Source of the DNA: an uncultured Bacteroidales bacterium | Lineage (GTDB): Bacteria > Bacteroidota > Bacteroidia > Bacteroidales > UBA932 | Direction: 5' to 3' | Assembly (NCBI GenBank): GCA_900317925.1 | Contig: ONIQ01000014.1 | Location: forward strand, 1-48,870 | Length of the DNA: 48,870 bases | Part shown: one piece after another, positions 66 to 24,073 of the stretch | Layout of the letters: the number at the start of each line of letters is the position of its first letter | Position numbering within the stretch: the first letter of the stretch is position 1 | The notes under the pieces: generated by a model | Told to the model about the DNA's origin: nothing | What the model saw: only the letters and a program-made list of their open reading frames with translations | Database searches by the model: none | Position numbers and translations under genes: made by a program

Positions 66-1892
66 ATGTCAGAGTATATCGTATCAGCCCGCAAATACCG
101 GCCGGACTCTTTCGAAGAATTGATCGGCCAGGATACCATCGCCAAAACCCTCAAGAATTCCATCTTGCGGGGCAAACTGGCGCACGCCTATCTGTTCTGC
201 GGCCCGCGCGGCGTGGGAAAGACCTCCACGGCCCGCATTTTCGCCAAAACCATCAACTGCGCGCATCCCAACGAGCAGATGGAGCCCTGCGGCGCGTGCG
301 AATCGTGCATCTCCTTCCAGGAGGGTCGGTCCTACTGCATCCACGAGCTGGATGCGGCCTCGAACAACGGTGTGGAAGATATCAAGGCGCTGATGGACCA
401 GGTGCAGATCCCGCCGCAGGTGGGCAAGTACAGCGTGTACATCATCGATGAGGTCCACATGCTCTCTACGCAGGCGTTCAATGCCTTCCTGAAGACCCTC
501 GAGGAACCGCCGGCACACGCCATTTTCATCCTCGCCACCACCGAGAAGCACAAAATCCTCCCGACCATCCTCTCCCGCTGCCAGACCTACGATTTCAATC
601 GCATCAGCATTTCCGATATCGTCCGGAACCTGCGGTCCATCGCTACGCGGGAAAACATTACGATCGATGATGAAAGCCTGCATGTCATTGCGCAAAAGGC
701 CGATGGCGCGATGCGCGACGCCCTCACGATCTTCGATCAGACGGTGGCGTTCTGCGGGACGGACGTAAAGGTGGCGGATGTGATGAAGAACCTGAACGTC
801 CTGGATTACGAATATAGCTTTTCGCTGGTGGATGCCTTCCTGTCGAAGGATTATGCCACGGCGCTGCTGAAGTTCGACGAGGTGCTGTCCAAGGGTTTCA
901 ATGCCCTGCATTTTGTGGCGGCCCTGAGCGCTCACCTGCGGGACCTGGCGGTGAGCAAGGCGGCGGGCGCGGCTTCGCTGCTGGAGCTGCCCGAGTCCCT
1001 GCGGCTGCGCTACCAGGAGCAGGCGGGTCGTTGCTCGCTGCAGTTCCTGTACGATGCGCTGTCCATCACCACGGCCTGCGAGACCGGCTATAAGGCGGCG
1101 GTGAATCCGCGTTTGCATATCGAATTCGCCCTCATGCGCCTGGCCTTCCTTGGCGGCGTCCCGGCTTCCGCCGCTGCATCGGCGCCTGCTCCGGGAGCAG
1201 AGGGGTCTTCTTCGCAGAAAATTAGGGAAAATGCTCATCAGACCCCTTCTGCTCCCGTCGCTGCCCCTGCGGCCCCCGCTTCGGCGGCTCCGGCCCCGGC
1301 GGCGGAACCGGAAGAAAACCGAAGAGCATATCCCCAAGTTCACAGCGATGAGGTTCCTTCCGGTACCGCTGCGAAGAGCGAAGAACCAAAGGCGGAGGAG
1401 AGCCCGAAGCCGAGGAGGCGGGCGGCGAAGACGGGCGCGGCCCTGTCGCTGGACGCCCTGATGCAGGATCAGCAGACGCAATCTGCACGCCCGGAGGAGG
1501 TCGAGAAAGCCCCGACGGAACTGCCTTCAGATGAGGTGCTTACGGCAAAATGGCAGGAACTGGCCGGCCAGTATTCCGACAAACCGCGTCTGGCCAGCAC
1601 CCTCTCCAACGCCACCCTGGAAATGGCCGAAGAAGACGGCCGCAAAGTGGCCACGGCCCTGGTGATGAACGTGTCGCAGAAGCAGTGGATCGAAGAACGT
1701 CTCCTGCACGAACTGGAAGGACGTTTCCAGAAGCTGTGCGGAAGCCCGCGTGTGGCCTTGCGCATAGGCGTGGTCCCGGATACGGAAAAGAAGGAAGTCC
1801 TGTATACCAATGCCGAGAAGGCCCAGTACCTGATGAGCCAGAACGGCGATGTCAAGAACTTGATTACAGACCTTGGTCTGGATATTAAATAA
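66..1892 (+). CDS. dnaX: DNA polymerase III subunit gamma/tau
   Basis: This is the clamp-loader ATPase of the replicative polymerase, 608 residues. The AAA+ module is complete: Walker A GPRGVGKT at residues 46-53, four zinc-ligand cysteines at C65, C75, C78 and C81, a DEVH Walker B at 128-131 and the SRC arginine-finger motif at 170-172. An Ala/Pro/Glu-rich linker spans roughly residues 365-470, followed by a tau-like C-terminal domain. A palindromic insertion sits in frame in this linker at residues 376-397 (see the repeat at 1193-1256). I saw no A-run slippery site of the kind that produces gamma by frameshifting in E. coli. lptB follows 9 bases downstream, so the two are probably co-transcribed. 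Confidence 0.96.
   Translation: MSEYIVSARKYRPDSFEELIGQDTIAKTLKNSILRGKLAHAYLFCGPRGVGKTSTARIFAKTINCAHPNEQMEPCGACESCISFQEGRSYCIHELDAASNNGVEDIKALMDQVQIPPQVGKYSVYIIDEVHMLSTQAFNAFLKTLEEPPAHAIFILATTEKHKILPTILSRCQTYDFNRISISDIVRNLRSIATRENITIDDESLHVIAQKADGAMRDALTIFDQTVAFCGTDVKVADVMKNLNVLDYEYSFSLVDAFLSKDYATALLKFDEVLSKGFNALHFVAALSAHLRDLAVSKAAGAASLLELPESLRLRYQEQAGRCSLQFLYDALSITTACETGYKAAVNPRLHIEFALMRLAFLGGVPASAAASAPAPGAEGSSSQKIRENAHQTPSAPVAAPAAPASAAPAPAAEPEENRRAYPQVHSDEVPSGTAAKSEEPKAEESPKPRRRAAKTGAALSLDALMQDQQTQSARPEEVEKAPTELPSDEVLTAKWQELAGQYSDKPRLASTLSNATLEMAEEDGRKVATALVMNVSQKQWIEERLLHELEGRFQKLCGSPRVALRIGVVPDTEKKEVLYTNAEKAQYLMSQNGDVKNLITDLGLDIK
1193..1256 (+). repeat. Palindromic in-frame repeat element, copy 1 (in dnaX)
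   Basis: The left arm at 1193-1208 (GGGAGCAGAGGGGTCT) and the right arm at 1240-1256 (AGACCCCTTCTGCTCCC) are complementary apart from a one-base bulge. They enclose a 31-base core at 1209-1239. The core matches the core of the copy in the fmt gene at 10259-10289 (opposite strand, coding orientation) at 29 of 31 positions. Read in the dnaX frame it encodes SSSQKIRENAHQ, against SSSQETRENAHQ in the other copy. It lies in the Ala/Pro-rich linker, where an insertion is likely tolerated. A second small dyad, CCTGCTCC/GGGAGCAG, begins at 1185 and may belong to the element. Confidence 0.85.
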
Positions 1893-9953: not shown

Positions 9954-12485
9954 TTAGATGGCTTTGTACGATTCGGGGTTGCGCCAGCCCAGCAGGAAGG
10001 CTTTCACATCCATGCGTTTCTTGCCGGACAGTTGTACGTCGGTCAGGGCCAGGGCACCGTCGGCCGTGGCGATGGCCAGGTACGTCTTGCCATCCGACAG
10101 GACTGTTCCCGGAGCCGGTTTTTCGGTCTGGAGACGCTCCGTCAGTTCCGGATACTTCGCTCCCGCCACCTCGCCGAAATAAATCTTCAGCTGGATGGCC
10201 TCGGCAGCATCCGGCCGGTGCTCCGTCGTTGCTGCAGCAGGAGCAGGAACACTGCTCTGATGAGCATTTTCCCTAGTTTCCTGCGAAGAAGAGCAGTGTC
10301 CCTGCTCCGAACAGGAAACCAGTTCGGCGAAGGCGGCCGGGTAGGGACTCAGGCCGCGGATGAGGTTGTAAATCTGCCGCGAAGGCCGATTCCAGTCAAT
10401 GTGACACAACTCACGGGTCAATTTCGGTGCCGGCTTCAGCACCTCCGAACCCTGGATGAAACTCCGTTGCACACGCGTTTCGACATTCTTCTGGATGATA
10501 CCCTCGACGGTCTGCACCACCAGGTCGGCACCCAGCGCCATCAGGCGGTCGTGCACGTCACCCGCGGTATCGGTATCGGAAATGCGGCATTCCTGGCGGA
10601 GGATGATACCGCCCGTGTCAATGTCTTTGTCGATCATGAAGGTCGTCACACCCGTCATCTTCTCCCCGTTGATGACCGCCCAGTTGATGGGGGCGGCGCC
10701 GCGGTACTGCGGCAGCAGGGCGGCATGCAGGTTGAAGGTGCCCAGCGGCGGCATGGTCCAGACCACATCGGGCAGCATCCGGAAGCCCACGACGACAAAC
10801 AGGTCGGCCTTGAACGCCTTCAGGGCTTCGAGGAAGGCCGGATCACGCAGCTTCTCGGGCTGCAGGACGGGCAGGCCTTTCTCCACCGCGTATTTCTTGA
10901 CGGCACTTTCATTCATCTTGAGGCCGCGTCCGCTGGGCTTGTCGGGCACGGTCACCACGCCCACCACATGGTATTTCTTCTGCAGGAGGGCGTCCAGGGG
11001 GGCCACCGCAAATTCGGGGGTACCCATATAAACGATGCGGGTCTTCTTGAAGAAGCTCATGAACTTGCTCTTGATTTTACGCCACCAGGTGCCGATGTTG
11101 TCGGTATTGAACAGGGAGGCGTCGTTTACGGCTTTCCAGGTAAGGAAAATGCCGATGGGTCCCAGGACCCAGGCCGAGATAAAGGCTCCGATAAAGGCGG
11201 TGGTAGCCCCGTCCTTGGCCAGTTTGGTGCCGGAAATGTCCACCACCCAATACAAGACGAAGAAGAGGATGGAGACAATGGCAGAGGTCCCTAGACCTCC
11301 TTTGCGGATGAGGGCGCCCAGCGGGGCCCCGATAAAGAAGAGGATCAGGCAGGCGAGGGCCTGTGCGAAGCGCTTGAACTTCTCTACATCGGCCCGGGCG
11401 AGGATGAAATTATACTCGTATGCGTCCCGGTTGAAGTTCTCGATGTTCATCGCCATCTGCATGGCGGTCTCTTTCGCCTTGCCCACGGCATCGCGGTGCC
11501 TGGCCGGGGATTTCCAGGTCAGGAAGTCTTCGGGCAGGTCGGACGGACGGGTGATGCCGGAGTGGACCGAGGTGTCCAGCTGGGAACGTTTGGCCAGGAA
11601 GGTGGGGGAGGTGAGGGCTCCCCAATGCATCACCTTGGTTGAATCGAGCAACTTGTTCAGGGAATCGGAATCGTTCCGCAACTTGCTCAATTTCATTGCT
11701 TTAACCTGATCTCCGTAGCGGGCTTCGTCCGATTTTTCAAAGGAATAGTTCTTCAGCGGGATCACCAGGTCCTGGCGGTTGAAATGAATCCGCTGGAGCT
11801 GCAGGGTGGTATCGCGGTACCGTTTGGTATTGGTCTCCTGGTAATTGATGCCGTGATAGAGCGTAAAGGTGAGGTAATCCTTCTGCTTGGACATCTTCAT
11901 CTGGGCCGAATCGGCCAGGGTCAGGAAGGTGTTCCCCTTGTTGGACGAGTGGTCATAGACCATGACGCCGTGCATCTTGCCGGTCTTGTCGTCGGTGTCC
12001 TCTACGCGCAGGATGTATCCGTCGATACCGTCATAGAACGTCCCGGAGGGAACTTTGATCTCCTCCTTGGTTTTGCCGATATCGTCGCGAAGCGTGTAAA
12101 TCTCGTTGTAGGACAGGGGCACCAGGTTGTTCAGCGCGAAGAAGGTGCCGATGCTGATGACCACCGAGGCGATGATGAGCGGGGTCATGACCCGGAAGAT
12201 GGAGATGCCGGCCGATTTCATGGCCAGCAGCTCGTTGTTTTCGCCCATCTGCCCGAGGGTCATCATGGAGGCCAGCAGGGTGGAAAGCGGGAGGGCGAGC
12301 GGCAGGATGGTGCAGCTGCCCCACATCAGGAACTCGAGGATGATTTTGAGCCCCAGGCCCTTGCCGACGAGTTCGTCGATATAGAGCCAGAGGAAATGCA
12401 GCATCAGGATGAAGATCACGACCACAAGGATCATGAGGAACGGCCCGATGAACGAAAACAGGATGAATCTGTCGAGTTTCTTCAT
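9954..12485 (-). CDS. fmt: Fusion: LptF/LptG-type permease plus methionyl-tRNA formyltransferase
   Basis: One open frame of 843 codons carries two normally separate proteins. Residues 1 to about 475 form a YjgP/YjgQ (LptF/LptG) permease: three N-terminal membrane helices, a periplasmic domain from about 130 to 330, and three C-terminal helices. Residues 476-843 form a complete Fmt, which formylates initiator Met-tRNA. It begins at MSFFKKTRIVYMGTPEFAVAP; catalytic N585, H587 and D623 keep the same spacing as N106, H108 and D144 of E. coli Fmt, and LLPQYRGAAPINWA is present. The internal ATG at 11058-11060 lies exactly where a free Fmt would start, so separate translation is possible. A palindromic insertion occupies residues 726-749 in the Fmt C-terminal part. 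The gene lies between alaS and trmB. The permease partner is probably LptB. Confidence 0.88.
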   Translation of the reverse strand: MKKLDRFILFSFIGPFLMILVVVIFILMLHFLWLYIDELVGKGLGLKIILEFLMWGSCTILPLALPLSTLLASMMTLGQMGENNELLAMKSAGISIFRVMTPLIIASVVISIGTFFALNNLVPLSYNEIYTLRDDIGKTKEEIKVPSGTFYDGIDGYILRVEDTDDKTGKMHGVMVYDHSSNKGNTFLTLADSAQMKMSKQKDYLTFTLYHGINYQETNTKRYRDTTLQLQRIHFNRQDLVIPLKNYSFEKSDEARYGDQVKAMKLSKLRNDSDSLNKLLDSTKVMHWGALTSPTFLAKRSQLDTSVHSGITRPSDLPEDFLTWKSPARHRDAVGKAKETAMQMAMNIENFNRDAYEYNFILARADVEKFKRFAQALACLILFFIGAPLGALIRKGGLGTSAIVSILFFVLYWVVDISGTKLAKDGATTAFIGAFISAWVLGPIGIFLTWKAVNDASLFNTDNIGTWWRKIKSKFMSFFKKTRIVYMGTPEFAVAPLDALLQKKYHVVGVVTVPDKPSGRGLKMNESAVKKYAVEKGLPVLQPEKLRDPAFLEALKAFKADLFVVVGFRMLPDVVWTMPPLGTFNLHAALLPQYRGAAPINWAVINGEKMTGVTTFMIDKDIDTGGIILRQECRISDTDTAGDVHDRLMALGADLVVQTVEGIIQKNVETRVQRSFIQGSEVLKPAPKLTRELCHIDWNRPSRQIYNLIRGLSPYPAAFAELVSCSEQGHCSSSQETRENAHQSSVPAPAAATTEHRPDAAEAIQLKIYFGEVAGAKYPELTERLQTEKPAPGTVLSDGKTYLAIATADGALALTDVQLSGKKRMDVKAFLLGWRNPESYKAI
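10240..10308 (-). repeat. Palindromic in-frame repeat element, copy 2 (in fmt)
   Basis: Two 19-base arms at 10240-10258 (GGAGCAGGAACACTGCTCT) and 10290-10308 are inverted copies with 18 of 19 positions paired. The 31-base loop at 10259-10289 is 29/31 identical to the core of the dnaX copy when read in the coding direction of fmt. It encodes SSSQETRENAHQ in frame. The outer arm ends (GGAGCAG/CTGCTCC) and the inner ends (TCT/AGA) are shared with copy 1. The middle of each arm differs between copies but remains complementary. The insertion falls between ELV and LKIYFGEV of the Fmt C-terminal domain, and Ala/Pro-rich residues follow it as in dnaX. Confidence 0.85.
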
Positions 12486-21825: not shown

Positions 21826-22707
21826 ATGTCAACTACAATTCTTTGGACTCTTGTTATCATCACCCTGCTCGGGCTGGTGCTGGCGGTTGTCCTCTATTTT
21901 GTAGCCTTGAAGTTCAAGGTGGTGGAGGATCCGCGCATCGATGAGGTGGAGAAGGTGATGCCAGGTGCGAATTGCGGCGGCTGCGGTTTCGCGGGTTGCC
22001 GTGCCTTCGCAGAGGCGGCTGTCAAAGCCCCGAACCTGGACAACAATTATTGTCCCGTTGGCGGAAACGATGTCATGGCCAAGGTGGCTGCCATTCTCGG
22101 ATACGAGATTCAGCAGAAGGCCCCCATGGTAGCGGTGGTCCGTTGCAACGGAACCTGTGAGGCGCGTCCCCGGATCAATGAATATCAGGGCGTACAGTCC
22201 TGCCGTGTGAAAGCGGCCCTGTATGCGGGTGATACCGGCTGTTCTTTCGGCTGCCTGGGTTGCGGGGACTGCGTGGAGGCTTGCCAGTTCGGCGCCTTGT
22301 CGATGGATCCCGTTACCGGTCTGCCGGTGGTGGACGAGGAAAAATGTACGGCTTGCGGTGCCTGCGCGAAGGCCTGCCCGAAAGCCATCATCGAACTGCG
22401 TGCGAAAGGCCCGCGCGGCATGCGGATGTTCGTGAGCTGCGTGAACAAGGACCGTGGTCCGGCCGTGAAGAAGGCCTGTGCGAATGCCTGCATCGGTTGC
22501 GGCATCTGCGCCAAGACCTGTACGCACGAAGCCATTGTTTTTGAAAACAACGTGGCCTACATCGATTATGCCAAGTGCAAGCTTTGCCGTGAGTGCGAGG
22601 CCGTTTGCCCGACGGGTGCAATCCATGGCGTGAATTATCCGAAGCCGTTGGATGTGGAGGGTATCAAGGCGCGGATTGCCGCCCGCAAGGCTACTAAATC
22701 TGAGTAA
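21826..22707 (+). CDS. rnfB: Rnf complex subunit RnfB (ferredoxin-type)
   Basis: RnfB is the cytoplasmic electron-entry subunit of the ion-pumping ferredoxin:NAD+ oxidoreductase. The 293-residue product has an N-terminal membrane helix, a four-cysteine Fe-S domain (NCGGCGFAGC plus a further YCPVGG), then several ferredoxin CxxCxxCxxxCP modules: FGCLGCGDCVEAC, CTACGACAKACP, CIGCGICAKTC and CKLCRECEAVCP. These give at least five potential cluster sites. It starts the rnfBCDGEA run. Confidence 0.95.
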   Translation: MSTTILWTLVIITLLGLVLAVVLYFVALKFKVVEDPRIDEVEKVMPGANCGGCGFAGCRAFAEAAVKAPNLDNNYCPVGGNDVMAKVAAILGYEIQQKAPMVAVVRCNGTCEARPRINEYQGVQSCRVKAALYAGDTGCSFGCLGCGDCVEACQFGALSMDPVTGLPVVDEEKCTACGACAKACPKAIIELRAKGPRGMRMFVSCVNKDRGPAVKKACANACIGCGICAKTCTHEAIVFENNVAYIDYAKCKLCRECEAVCPTGAIHGVNYPKPLDVEGIKARIAARKATKSE

Positions 22708-22711
22708 GACT

Positions 22712-24073
22712 ATGGCAACGAGAACTTTTTCGATTGGCGGTGTGCATCCCAGGGATGCAAAGATTTCCCGCGGCTGTGCGATTGAACCGCTGCCGCTTCC
22801 GCCTACCGTATATATCAGCATGTCCCAGCATATCGGCGCGCCGGCGAAGCCCCTTGTGGCGGTCGGCGACAAGGTGAAGGTGGGACAGCCGGTGGCCGAA
22901 CCCGGTGGCTTCGTATCGGCGTTCATCCATTCTTCCGTGTCGGGTACGGTGAAGTCCATCGGGCCGCGCAAGGACCTGGCCGGCAACCCGCAGACCTGCA
23001 TTGAGATTGCCGTCGAAGGCGACGAGTGGATGGAGGGCATCGATACGTCCGACACCCTGGTGACCTCCTTTGATGACGACAACAAGGCCGTTCTGGAGAA
23101 AATCCGCCTGGCCGGTGTCGTGGGCCTGGGCGGTGCCACCTTCCCGACGCATGTAAAACTGTCCCCGCCTCCGGGCAAGACCTGCGAGATGCTCATCATC
23201 AACGGTTGCGAGTGCGAGCCGTACCTTACCTCCGACTTCCGTACCCTCCTGGAAAAGGGCGAGCAGGTGGTGGTGGGGACCGCCATCCTGAAGCAGGTGC
23301 TGCATGTGGACAAGGCGGTGATTGGCATCGAGGACAACAAGCCCGAGGCCATCAAGCATGTCTGCGACATCATCAAGGAATTCCAGAAACTTTCTTCGAA
23401 GTATGCCGGCATCAGCGTGATGTCGCTGATGAAGAAGTATCCGGAAGGCGGTGAAAAACAGCTGATCGATGCCGTGATGCACCGTCAGGTCCGTTCCGGC
23501 GGTCTTCCGATCGACGTGGGCGCCGTGGTGCAGAATGTGGCTACCGCACTGGCGGTTTATGATGCCGTGCAGAAGAACAAACCCATCGTGGACAACTCCG
23601 TTACCGTGACGGGCGAGTGCTTCCCCAAGCAGGCGAACCTGCTGGTCCGCGTGGGAACCCCGCTGCAGTACATCATCGACTATCTGGGCGGTGTGCCGGC
23701 CGATGCGGTGAAGGTTATCAGCGGCGGCCCGATGATGGGCAAGGCCATTGCCAACCTGGATGCCGCTACGGTGAAAGGAACGTCGGCCCTGCTCTTCCTG
23801 CGGGCGGACCAGACGGTGCGTGGTTCGGAAAGCCAGTGTATCCGGTGCGGTCGTTGTGCCGATGCATGTCCGATGGGCCTGGAGCCTTTCCTGCTGAACA
23901 AACTGGCCAAGACCGCCGATATGGAACAGCTGGAGGCCAATGCCATCCAGGATTGCATCGAGTGTGGCTGCTGCCTGTACAGCTGTCCGGCGAATATCCC
24001 GCTCCTGGACCGCATCCGGATCGCAAAAGGCCAGGTGCTCGGCATTATCCGGGCGCGGAACGCGAAGAAATAA
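22712..24073 (+). CDS. rnfC: Rnf complex subunit RnfC (NADH-binding)
   Basis: RnfC holds FMN and the NAD(H) site on the cytoplasmic face. The 453-residue protein has an N-terminal barrel-sandwich domain, the nucleotide region VGLGGATFPTHVK with NGCECEPYL, an SLBB-like segment and two [4Fe-4S] motifs, CIRCGRCADACP and CIECGCCLYSCP. An upstream start would overlap rnfB, but the ATG at 22712, 4 bases after the rnfB stop, gives the expected MATRTFSIGGVHP beginning. Confidence 0.95.
   Translation: MATRTFSIGGVHPRDAKISRGCAIEPLPLPPTVYISMSQHIGAPAKPLVAVGDKVKVGQPVAEPGGFVSAFIHSSVSGTVKSIGPRKDLAGNPQTCIEIAVEGDEWMEGIDTSDTLVTSFDDDNKAVLEKIRLAGVVGLGGATFPTHVKLSPPPGKTCEMLIINGCECEPYLTSDFRTLLEKGEQVVVGTAILKQVLHVDKAVIGIEDNKPEAIKHVCDIIKEFQKLSSKYAGISVMSLMKKYPEGGEKQLIDAVMHRQVRSGGLPIDVGAVVQNVATALAVYDAVQKNKPIVDNSVTVTGECFPKQANLLVRVGTPLQYIIDYLGGVPADAVKVISGGPMMGKAIANLDAATVKGTSALLFLRADQTVRGSESQCIRCGRCADACPMGLEPFLLNKLAKTADMEQLEANAIQDCIECGCCLYSCPANIPLLDRIRIAKGQVLGIIRARNAKK

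Follow-up and report, generated by a model that had tools for sequence, protein, structure and literature searches.

A Palindromic Repeat Family with a Shared Apex and Copy-Specific Arms, Carried in Frame by Unrelated Genes of an Uncultured Bacteroidales Bacterium

Introduction

In the genome of an uncultured Bacteroidales bacterium, the dnaX and fmt genes carry nearly the same short palindrome within the window considered here, namely the whole stretch of 48,870 nt that was analyzed. This raises the question of whether the two palindromes are copies of a mobile repeat that is translated with its host genes and, if so, which part of the repeat is passed from copy to copy. A preliminary description of the window proposed such a mobile repeat, likened it to the Rickettsia palindromic elements and placed its copies in linkers or surface loops. 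We have evaluated this proposal with the genome containing the window (2.18 Mb, hereafter abbreviated as G000), that of a sister species of the same genus (hereafter G063) and broader samples of related genomes.

Copies in the Window

The two 31-nt cores originally reported lie on opposite strands (copies 1 and 3 in table 1), differ at 2 of their 31 positions and both encode SSSQ(K/E)(I/T)RENAHQ in the identical frame, as had been claimed; the segment 1193-1256 delimited earlier corresponds to the first core with its arms. A pattern of 32 nt derived from both cores matches the window twice, as against no match in 100 shuffles, and the cores fold together with their arms into long hairpins (z-scores of -3.9 to -5.4). 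Fold and frame back copy 1 (79.2 bits with model R1, 64.8 bits with R2) as well as copy 3 (84.3 and 79.0 bits, respectively), whereas copy 2, which is absent from the preliminary description, is supported by its frame and by both models. The earlier account also missed that the arms of copy 1 and of the fmt copy differ in sequence, each arm being complementary to its own partner.

Table 1. Copies of the element, host genes and an empty site in the window
Feature	Position	Strand	Details
Copy 1, dnaX linker	1189..1259	-	Core 1209-1239, arms flanking both sides; + strand sequence APGAEGSSSQKIRENAHQTPSAPV
Copy 2, dnaX linker	1301..1371	+	Orientation opposite to copy 1; core 1321-1351; + strand sequence AAEPEENRRAYPQVHSDEVPSGTAA
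Copy 3, fmt	10239..10309	+	Core 10259-10289; gene on the other strand, reading SEQGHCSSSQETRENAHQSSVPAP
Host gene dnaX (DNA polymerase III gamma/tau)	66..1892	+	Pfam DNA_pol3_delta2, DNAX_ATPase_lid, DNA_pol3_gamma3
Host ORF, LptF/LptG permease and Fmt formyltransferase	9954..12485	-	Single 843-aa frame
Empty site, ferredoxin-domain gene	22587..22798	-	G063 relative has an element doublet here; 171-nt difference

The proposed location in a linker or surface loop holds for dnaX, in which both copies lie beyond domain III; in fmt, the copy falls within the Formyl_trans_C match. The inserted residues of DnaX are missing from all 8 relatives aligned, one of which (L164, a sheep-rumen Bacteroidales assembly) has a different hairpin, of a long-loop type, in the same linker (L164:4397-4474, E 0.0012), a second hit on the dnaX linker, in another species. 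The unbroken frame joining LptF/LptG and Fmt may consist of overlapping genes with no stop between them.

Family Size and Anatomy of the Hairpins

The repeat is not restricted to the two genes in which it was first noticed, since the genome search gave 39 matches. A degenerate pattern of the core finds six copies in G000, copy 2 of the window among them, and a GH3 gene of the same genome has an additional copy, the loop of which is shorter by 9 nt. Using a covariance model built from 7 copies and counting matches at E<=10, we found 39 matches in G000, some of which overlap at their ends (38 are full length); this number is a lower bound because only 150 of the 549 first-look candidates were scored.

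Structural alignment of 37 copies from G000 confirms that the family is large and real, with an apex that is shared and arms that vary by copy. The apex or core, of approximately 31-33 nt, is 77% identical between copies, whereas the arms are only 33-38% identical, against 29% expected from their composition. Within a copy, pairing reaches 81% for the outer arms and 88% for the inner arms, as compared with 44% and 48% after shuffling partners among copies. Overall, 74.2% of the stem cells are paired in the 37 aligned copies versus 44.5% in shuffles, and the covariation score is 0.659 versus 0.162 (none of 500 shuffles was as high); the alignment was fitted to the tested structure, which favors pairing and covariation, and slid controls drop to 0.10-0.17.

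The apex strand reads GANGAGC...GYGANGA and the helix runs on through tandem G·A/A·G modules, the mismatch pairs of which are retained in 35, 34, 32 and 32 of the 37 copies. The pair lying between these modules covaries (G-C in 28 copies, T-A in 6, and A-T, G-T and G-G in 1 each), while beyond them a GC(A) stem leads to the loop, all of this standing atop a long copy-specific stem. Sheared G·A pairs in tandem are stable, unlike the C·T mismatches of the complementary strand, and this suggests that folding involves one single strand in particular. Copies are found in both orientations, often as doublets or triplets within one gene, and inspection of the alignment found no constant terminus at the foot of the hairpin, which consists of copy-specific arm sequence.

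Host Genes, Reading Frame and Strand

After exclusion of a partial match of 23 nt, 38 of the 39 matches were placed on genes. In-frame placement, noticed earlier in two genes, holds for 34 of them, which are spread over 24 ORFs that all contain Pfam domains; the other four (L018, L026, L034 and L037) are noncoding or uncertain. The hosts include dnaX, fmt, two GH3 genes, rsmF, purL, a PP-loop gene, shikimate kinase, dihydropteroate synthase, hisD-hisC, murG-murC, mutS, rsmH and cysS, names that we deduced from Pfam domains; the ORFs were delimited from stop to stop. The copy precedes the Pfam domain within such an ORF in two cases (L017 and L030), and 9 of the 24 host ORFs contain two or three copies.

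All six frames of the consensus core are open, but the 34 in-frame copies use them 14, 10, 5, 5, 0 and 0 times (chi-square p 6e-5, with copies that are partly non-independent), and the two unused frames encode basic or hydrophobic stretches. Judged from these sequences, the bias points to purging at the protein level. Sense and antisense copies number 19 and 15, respectively (p 0.61), and this lack of strand preference is more readily reconciled with a function of the DNA than with one of the mRNA.

The murG and murC genes of G000 form one frame of 887 aa (G000:C26:3994-6654; L041:995-3655) with a doublet of the element at the junction, and they are joined also in G063 (L091). A stop precedes murC in all five relatives with an inspected junction, and in the other genus members murG and murC appear as separate entries, apart from G008, where murC lies in a frame of 821 aa, and G014, which gave no match. 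The domains of hisD and hisC share a frame of 827 aa (L039:177-2657), the linker between them containing a copy. At G000:C39:45879-46069 and C46:49016-49182, at least three units, some of them truncated, are clustered within genes for a radical-SAM protein and shikimate kinase.

Presence and Absence between Sister Species

The only other rich genome among the 81 of the genus that were compared is G063, with 37 matches as against 40 for G000 in this comparison. Many sites are common to G000 and G063, while others are filled in one species alone. The protein alignment of GH3 shows 18 and 24 additional residues in G000 that have no counterpart in G063, purH of G063 is longer by 15 residues than that of G000, and rsmF is filled in G000, with a difference of 60 nt from G063. 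Conversely, G063 has filled sites in a hisA/hisF-type gene (93 nt), a shikimate dehydrogenase gene (135 nt) and the ferredoxin-domain gene the empty counterpart of which lies in the window. The seven coding insertions measured are all multiples of three, as opposed to the 56-nt difference at L026, a site judged noncoding. In fmt of G063 half an element remains, which lacks its left arm and a portion of its core. Inspection by eye found no direct target duplication at the L026 and rsmF junctions. Panels for atpG, rnfB and fmt, as well as the G045 row of purH, were dropped as non-homologous frames.

This pattern of presence and absence, as read from genome comparison, indicates mobility of the element, with insertion and loss not separated by an outgroup at most of the sites. 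Together with the size of the family, it supports the earlier idea of a mobile protein-coding repeat.

Origin of the Arms and Inversion of the Core

The arms of 25 orthologous pairs from G000 and G063 are 89% and 88% identical and their flanks 87%, ignoring gaps and considering pairs drawn from G063 stretches that already match the model, which favors conserved ones. In shared copies, then, the arms change no more rapidly than the sequence around them, and hence do not race after insertion. Hyper-evolving arms, entertained as a candidate explanation, are unsupported by these values. An exception is the pair L037/L085, in which both arms have changed between the species but remain paired (12/20 and 13/20); L046/L077 is too divergent for the comparison of arms.

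Usable arms were available for 64 of 74 copies, giving 993 within-genome pairs with a mean arm similarity of 0.37. Eight of these pairs share the inner 10 positions at >=0.85, and in all eight the outer 10 positions are at 0.40-0.65; these pairs are not independent, since several involve the same copies. The reverse situation is found in L044/L030, which have similar outer arms and dissimilar inner ones, contrary to the reading that the inner arm is inherited. For nine species-specific copies, the best match of the outer arm among the 64 copies is just 0.60-0.75, the value of 0.75 being that between the two halves of one doublet.

The sequences of seven empty sites bear on the source of the arms, a native arm being clear at one of them (L026) and probable at another (rsmF). 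At L026 one entire arm is native (26/26 nt), but the arms are imperfect complements even though the native arm is unchanged in G063, which argues against fold-back copying. At rsmF, the native match covers 10/11 nt of the outer right arm, within a stretch that is partly self-complementary and similar to the left arm too. Both outer arms were already there at the purH site, in the form of a short inverted repeat; one GH3 site (GH3-1) is ambiguous, and GH3-2, L094 and L096 have little or no native arm.

Inversion of the core was evaluated in 27 shared copies, of which 21 could be bracketed, with cores at unequal lengths in L013, L015, L029 and L034. The core is inverted between the same arms in two cases, L019/L074 and L043/L086, the latter without a mismatch, and the BLAST orientation reveals a third flip in L015/L092. 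Template switching at inverted repeats has been documented to invert spacers and to homogenize arms (PMC8604942).

Distribution and Related Repeats

Across the genus, a search in which 25 candidates were scored in each genome gave matches at E<=1e-4 in 29 of 200 genomes, with 23 and 25 in the two rich ones and 1-6 in each of the others. A pattern close to the window core occurs in 2 of the 200. The 21 new loci that were inspected show several apex types and have long, mostly well paired and different stems; L309 and L310 appear to be one orthologous site. In an order-wide sample of 198 genomes, matches were found in G000 alone. The closest named records in dnaX similarity are mostly rumen Bacteroidales assemblies, and the genus may perhaps lie near Candidatus Cryptobacteroides.

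The exact 29-nt core has no occurrence in genome_contigs, nor do the exact patterns in viral_contigs; the 33-nt consensus found nothing among plasmids and phages at E 0.1, so short a query being liable to miss diverged copies. No Rfam family matches at the gathering score in 9 loci, the dnaX locus giving sub-threshold matches only. Searches of an open-access library turned up no account of elements of this type in Bacteroidales.

Another genome, G065, contains a conventional palindrome of about 165 bp that has conserved arms and a related apex, a situation that speaks against the fold-back reading discussed below. At least 12 near-identical copies of it (L272-L283) have the ends CCGGAATGC...GCATTCCGG, and this palindrome may be a relative that moves by other means.

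Proposed Mechanism and Alternatives

The reading we favor, with a probability of roughly 0.57, is that these repeats are very small, non-autonomous mobile hairpins, of which the apex and the inner arm (~50 nt) are inherited while the stem is extended by fold-back copying. The heritable unit would comprise the apex and an inner arm of ~10 bp, and would reach new sites by being copied either in the form of a single-stranded hairpin or via template switching during replication. Its 3' end would then fold back and copy the host DNA beside the junction, so that target sequence is added to the stem in inverted form, and subsequent template switching would invert the spacer. Only those copies would survive that preserve the frame and encode tolerable residues. 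The stronger proposition, mobile DNA that inherits just the apex and a stem of ~10 bp, with the remaining stem rewritten at each site from the target and possibly by enzyme-free template switching, is tentative, and we would place it below even odds. If it were true, nearly every copy would be a custom hairpin and harmless translation the sole filter.

It is conceivable, if rather unlikely, that the element is inherited whole with its arms, which later undergo compensated divergence by template-switch homogenization instead of being made at insertion. The L037/L085 pair, with both arms different and still paired, is in line with this, and such homogenization of arms is documented (PMC8604942); however, the orthologous pairs do not show arms diverging faster than flanks, and the species-specific copies lack close outer-arm matches, even if their donors may be absent from the set. 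We consider unlikely, too, that a Y1 (tyrosine HUH) transposase moves the element through a single-stranded fold, in the manner of REP/RAYT systems. Recognition of a folded single strand is what the conserved G·A modules point to, and Y1_Tnp matches are present in 15 of 20 genomes searched, including 9 of the 10 with matches to the element model, G000 having two (both under the curated cut-off) and G063 two above it. Yet Y1 genes are found also in 6 of the 10 searched genomes without model matches, the element has no constant foot tag, and no copy lies within ~2 kb at the 20 of 49 Y1 loci searched, which include all four of G000 and G063 (best E 5.9). A Y1 gene on contig C66 of G000 is ~5 kb from the rsmF copies. 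Hairpins adjoining 12 inspected Y1 genes seem unrelated to the element; Y1 genes of the genus (L253, L254, L255, L256, L258 and L268) have short palindromes of their own nearby, for example TTGGACCTGGTCCAA.

A fixed apex on a covarying stem is also the classical signature of functional RNA, and the hairpin might thus be a selected cis-regulatory RNA that does not move. We regard this as improbable in view of the unrelated host genes, the lack of preference for the mRNA strand, the presence and absence of copies between sister species, the spacer flips and the lack of an Rfam family at the gathering threshold in the 9 loci. Reverse transcription by group II intron, retron or DGR machinery has the hairpin anatomy alone in its favor and is very improbable: RVT_1 was detected in 6 of the 20 genomes searched, but the two that are richest in the element, G000 and G063 (assemblies 95% and 93% complete), gave no match. 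Finally, palindromes in draft genomes could arise as fold-back chimeras of assembly, but orthologous copies in two separate assemblies, a conserved apex, covariation and a maintained frame leave this a negligible chance.

Comparison with Known Systems

Mobile hairpins of the kind we favor can be missed by repeat finders, because these seek conserved sequence while the stems vary by copy; the element emerges once apex and pairing are modeled together. It offers a bacterial setting for studying how palindromes enter, and are tolerated in, core proteins (dnaX, fmt, purL, murG-murC and cysS among them), as in the murG-murC doublet, where genes that are separate in the inspected relatives became one frame. 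It is also a system for asking whether template switching alone can move mobile DNA.

Template-switch mutagenesis of inverted repeats would likewise be expected to perfect arms and invert spacers within coding DNA (PMC8604942), but it is a mutational process of local repeats and does not carry a conserved apex into further genes. Long perfect inverted repeats lie within translated genes of Nematomorpha mitochondria (PMC6649704, from the abstract), but there both arms encode conserved regions of protein and the abstract mentions no shared apex. The REPs of the GTAG and CGTC types, the latter reported from Bacteroidetes, are described as short hairpins, often dimeric, that end in an unpaired tag, have stems of 5-13 bp and for the most part lie between genes, some being intragenic (PMC3733652). 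Our element resembles this description in being a short hairpin that is often a doublet, yet its stems are longer and variable, most copies are genic, no GTAG or CGTC foot tag is recognized and no copies lie beside the Y1 genes searched. It differs from MITEs in having neither constant terminal inverted repeats nor, by eye at L026 and rsmF, a direct target duplication.

The sequence of the Rickettsia palindromic elements is conserved over its whole length, terminal inverted repeats included, and Wolbachia reportedly has in-frame, protein-coding palindromes akin to them. The Rickettsia elements are described as dispersed palindromes found in frame in unrelated genes, with a length of 105-146 bp and terminal inverted repeats (PMC10969869, PMC2229807). 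The likeness to them suggested by the preliminary description therefore stands for behavior, namely the in-frame dispersal of a palindrome in unrelated ORFs, and falls for anatomy: our element has only an apex of ~31 nt in common between copies, and its host belongs to the Bacteroidota rather than to the Alphaproteobacteria. The behavior is thus one already known from the Rickettsia palindromic elements, whereas the anatomy is different, with a shared apex and copy-specific arms.
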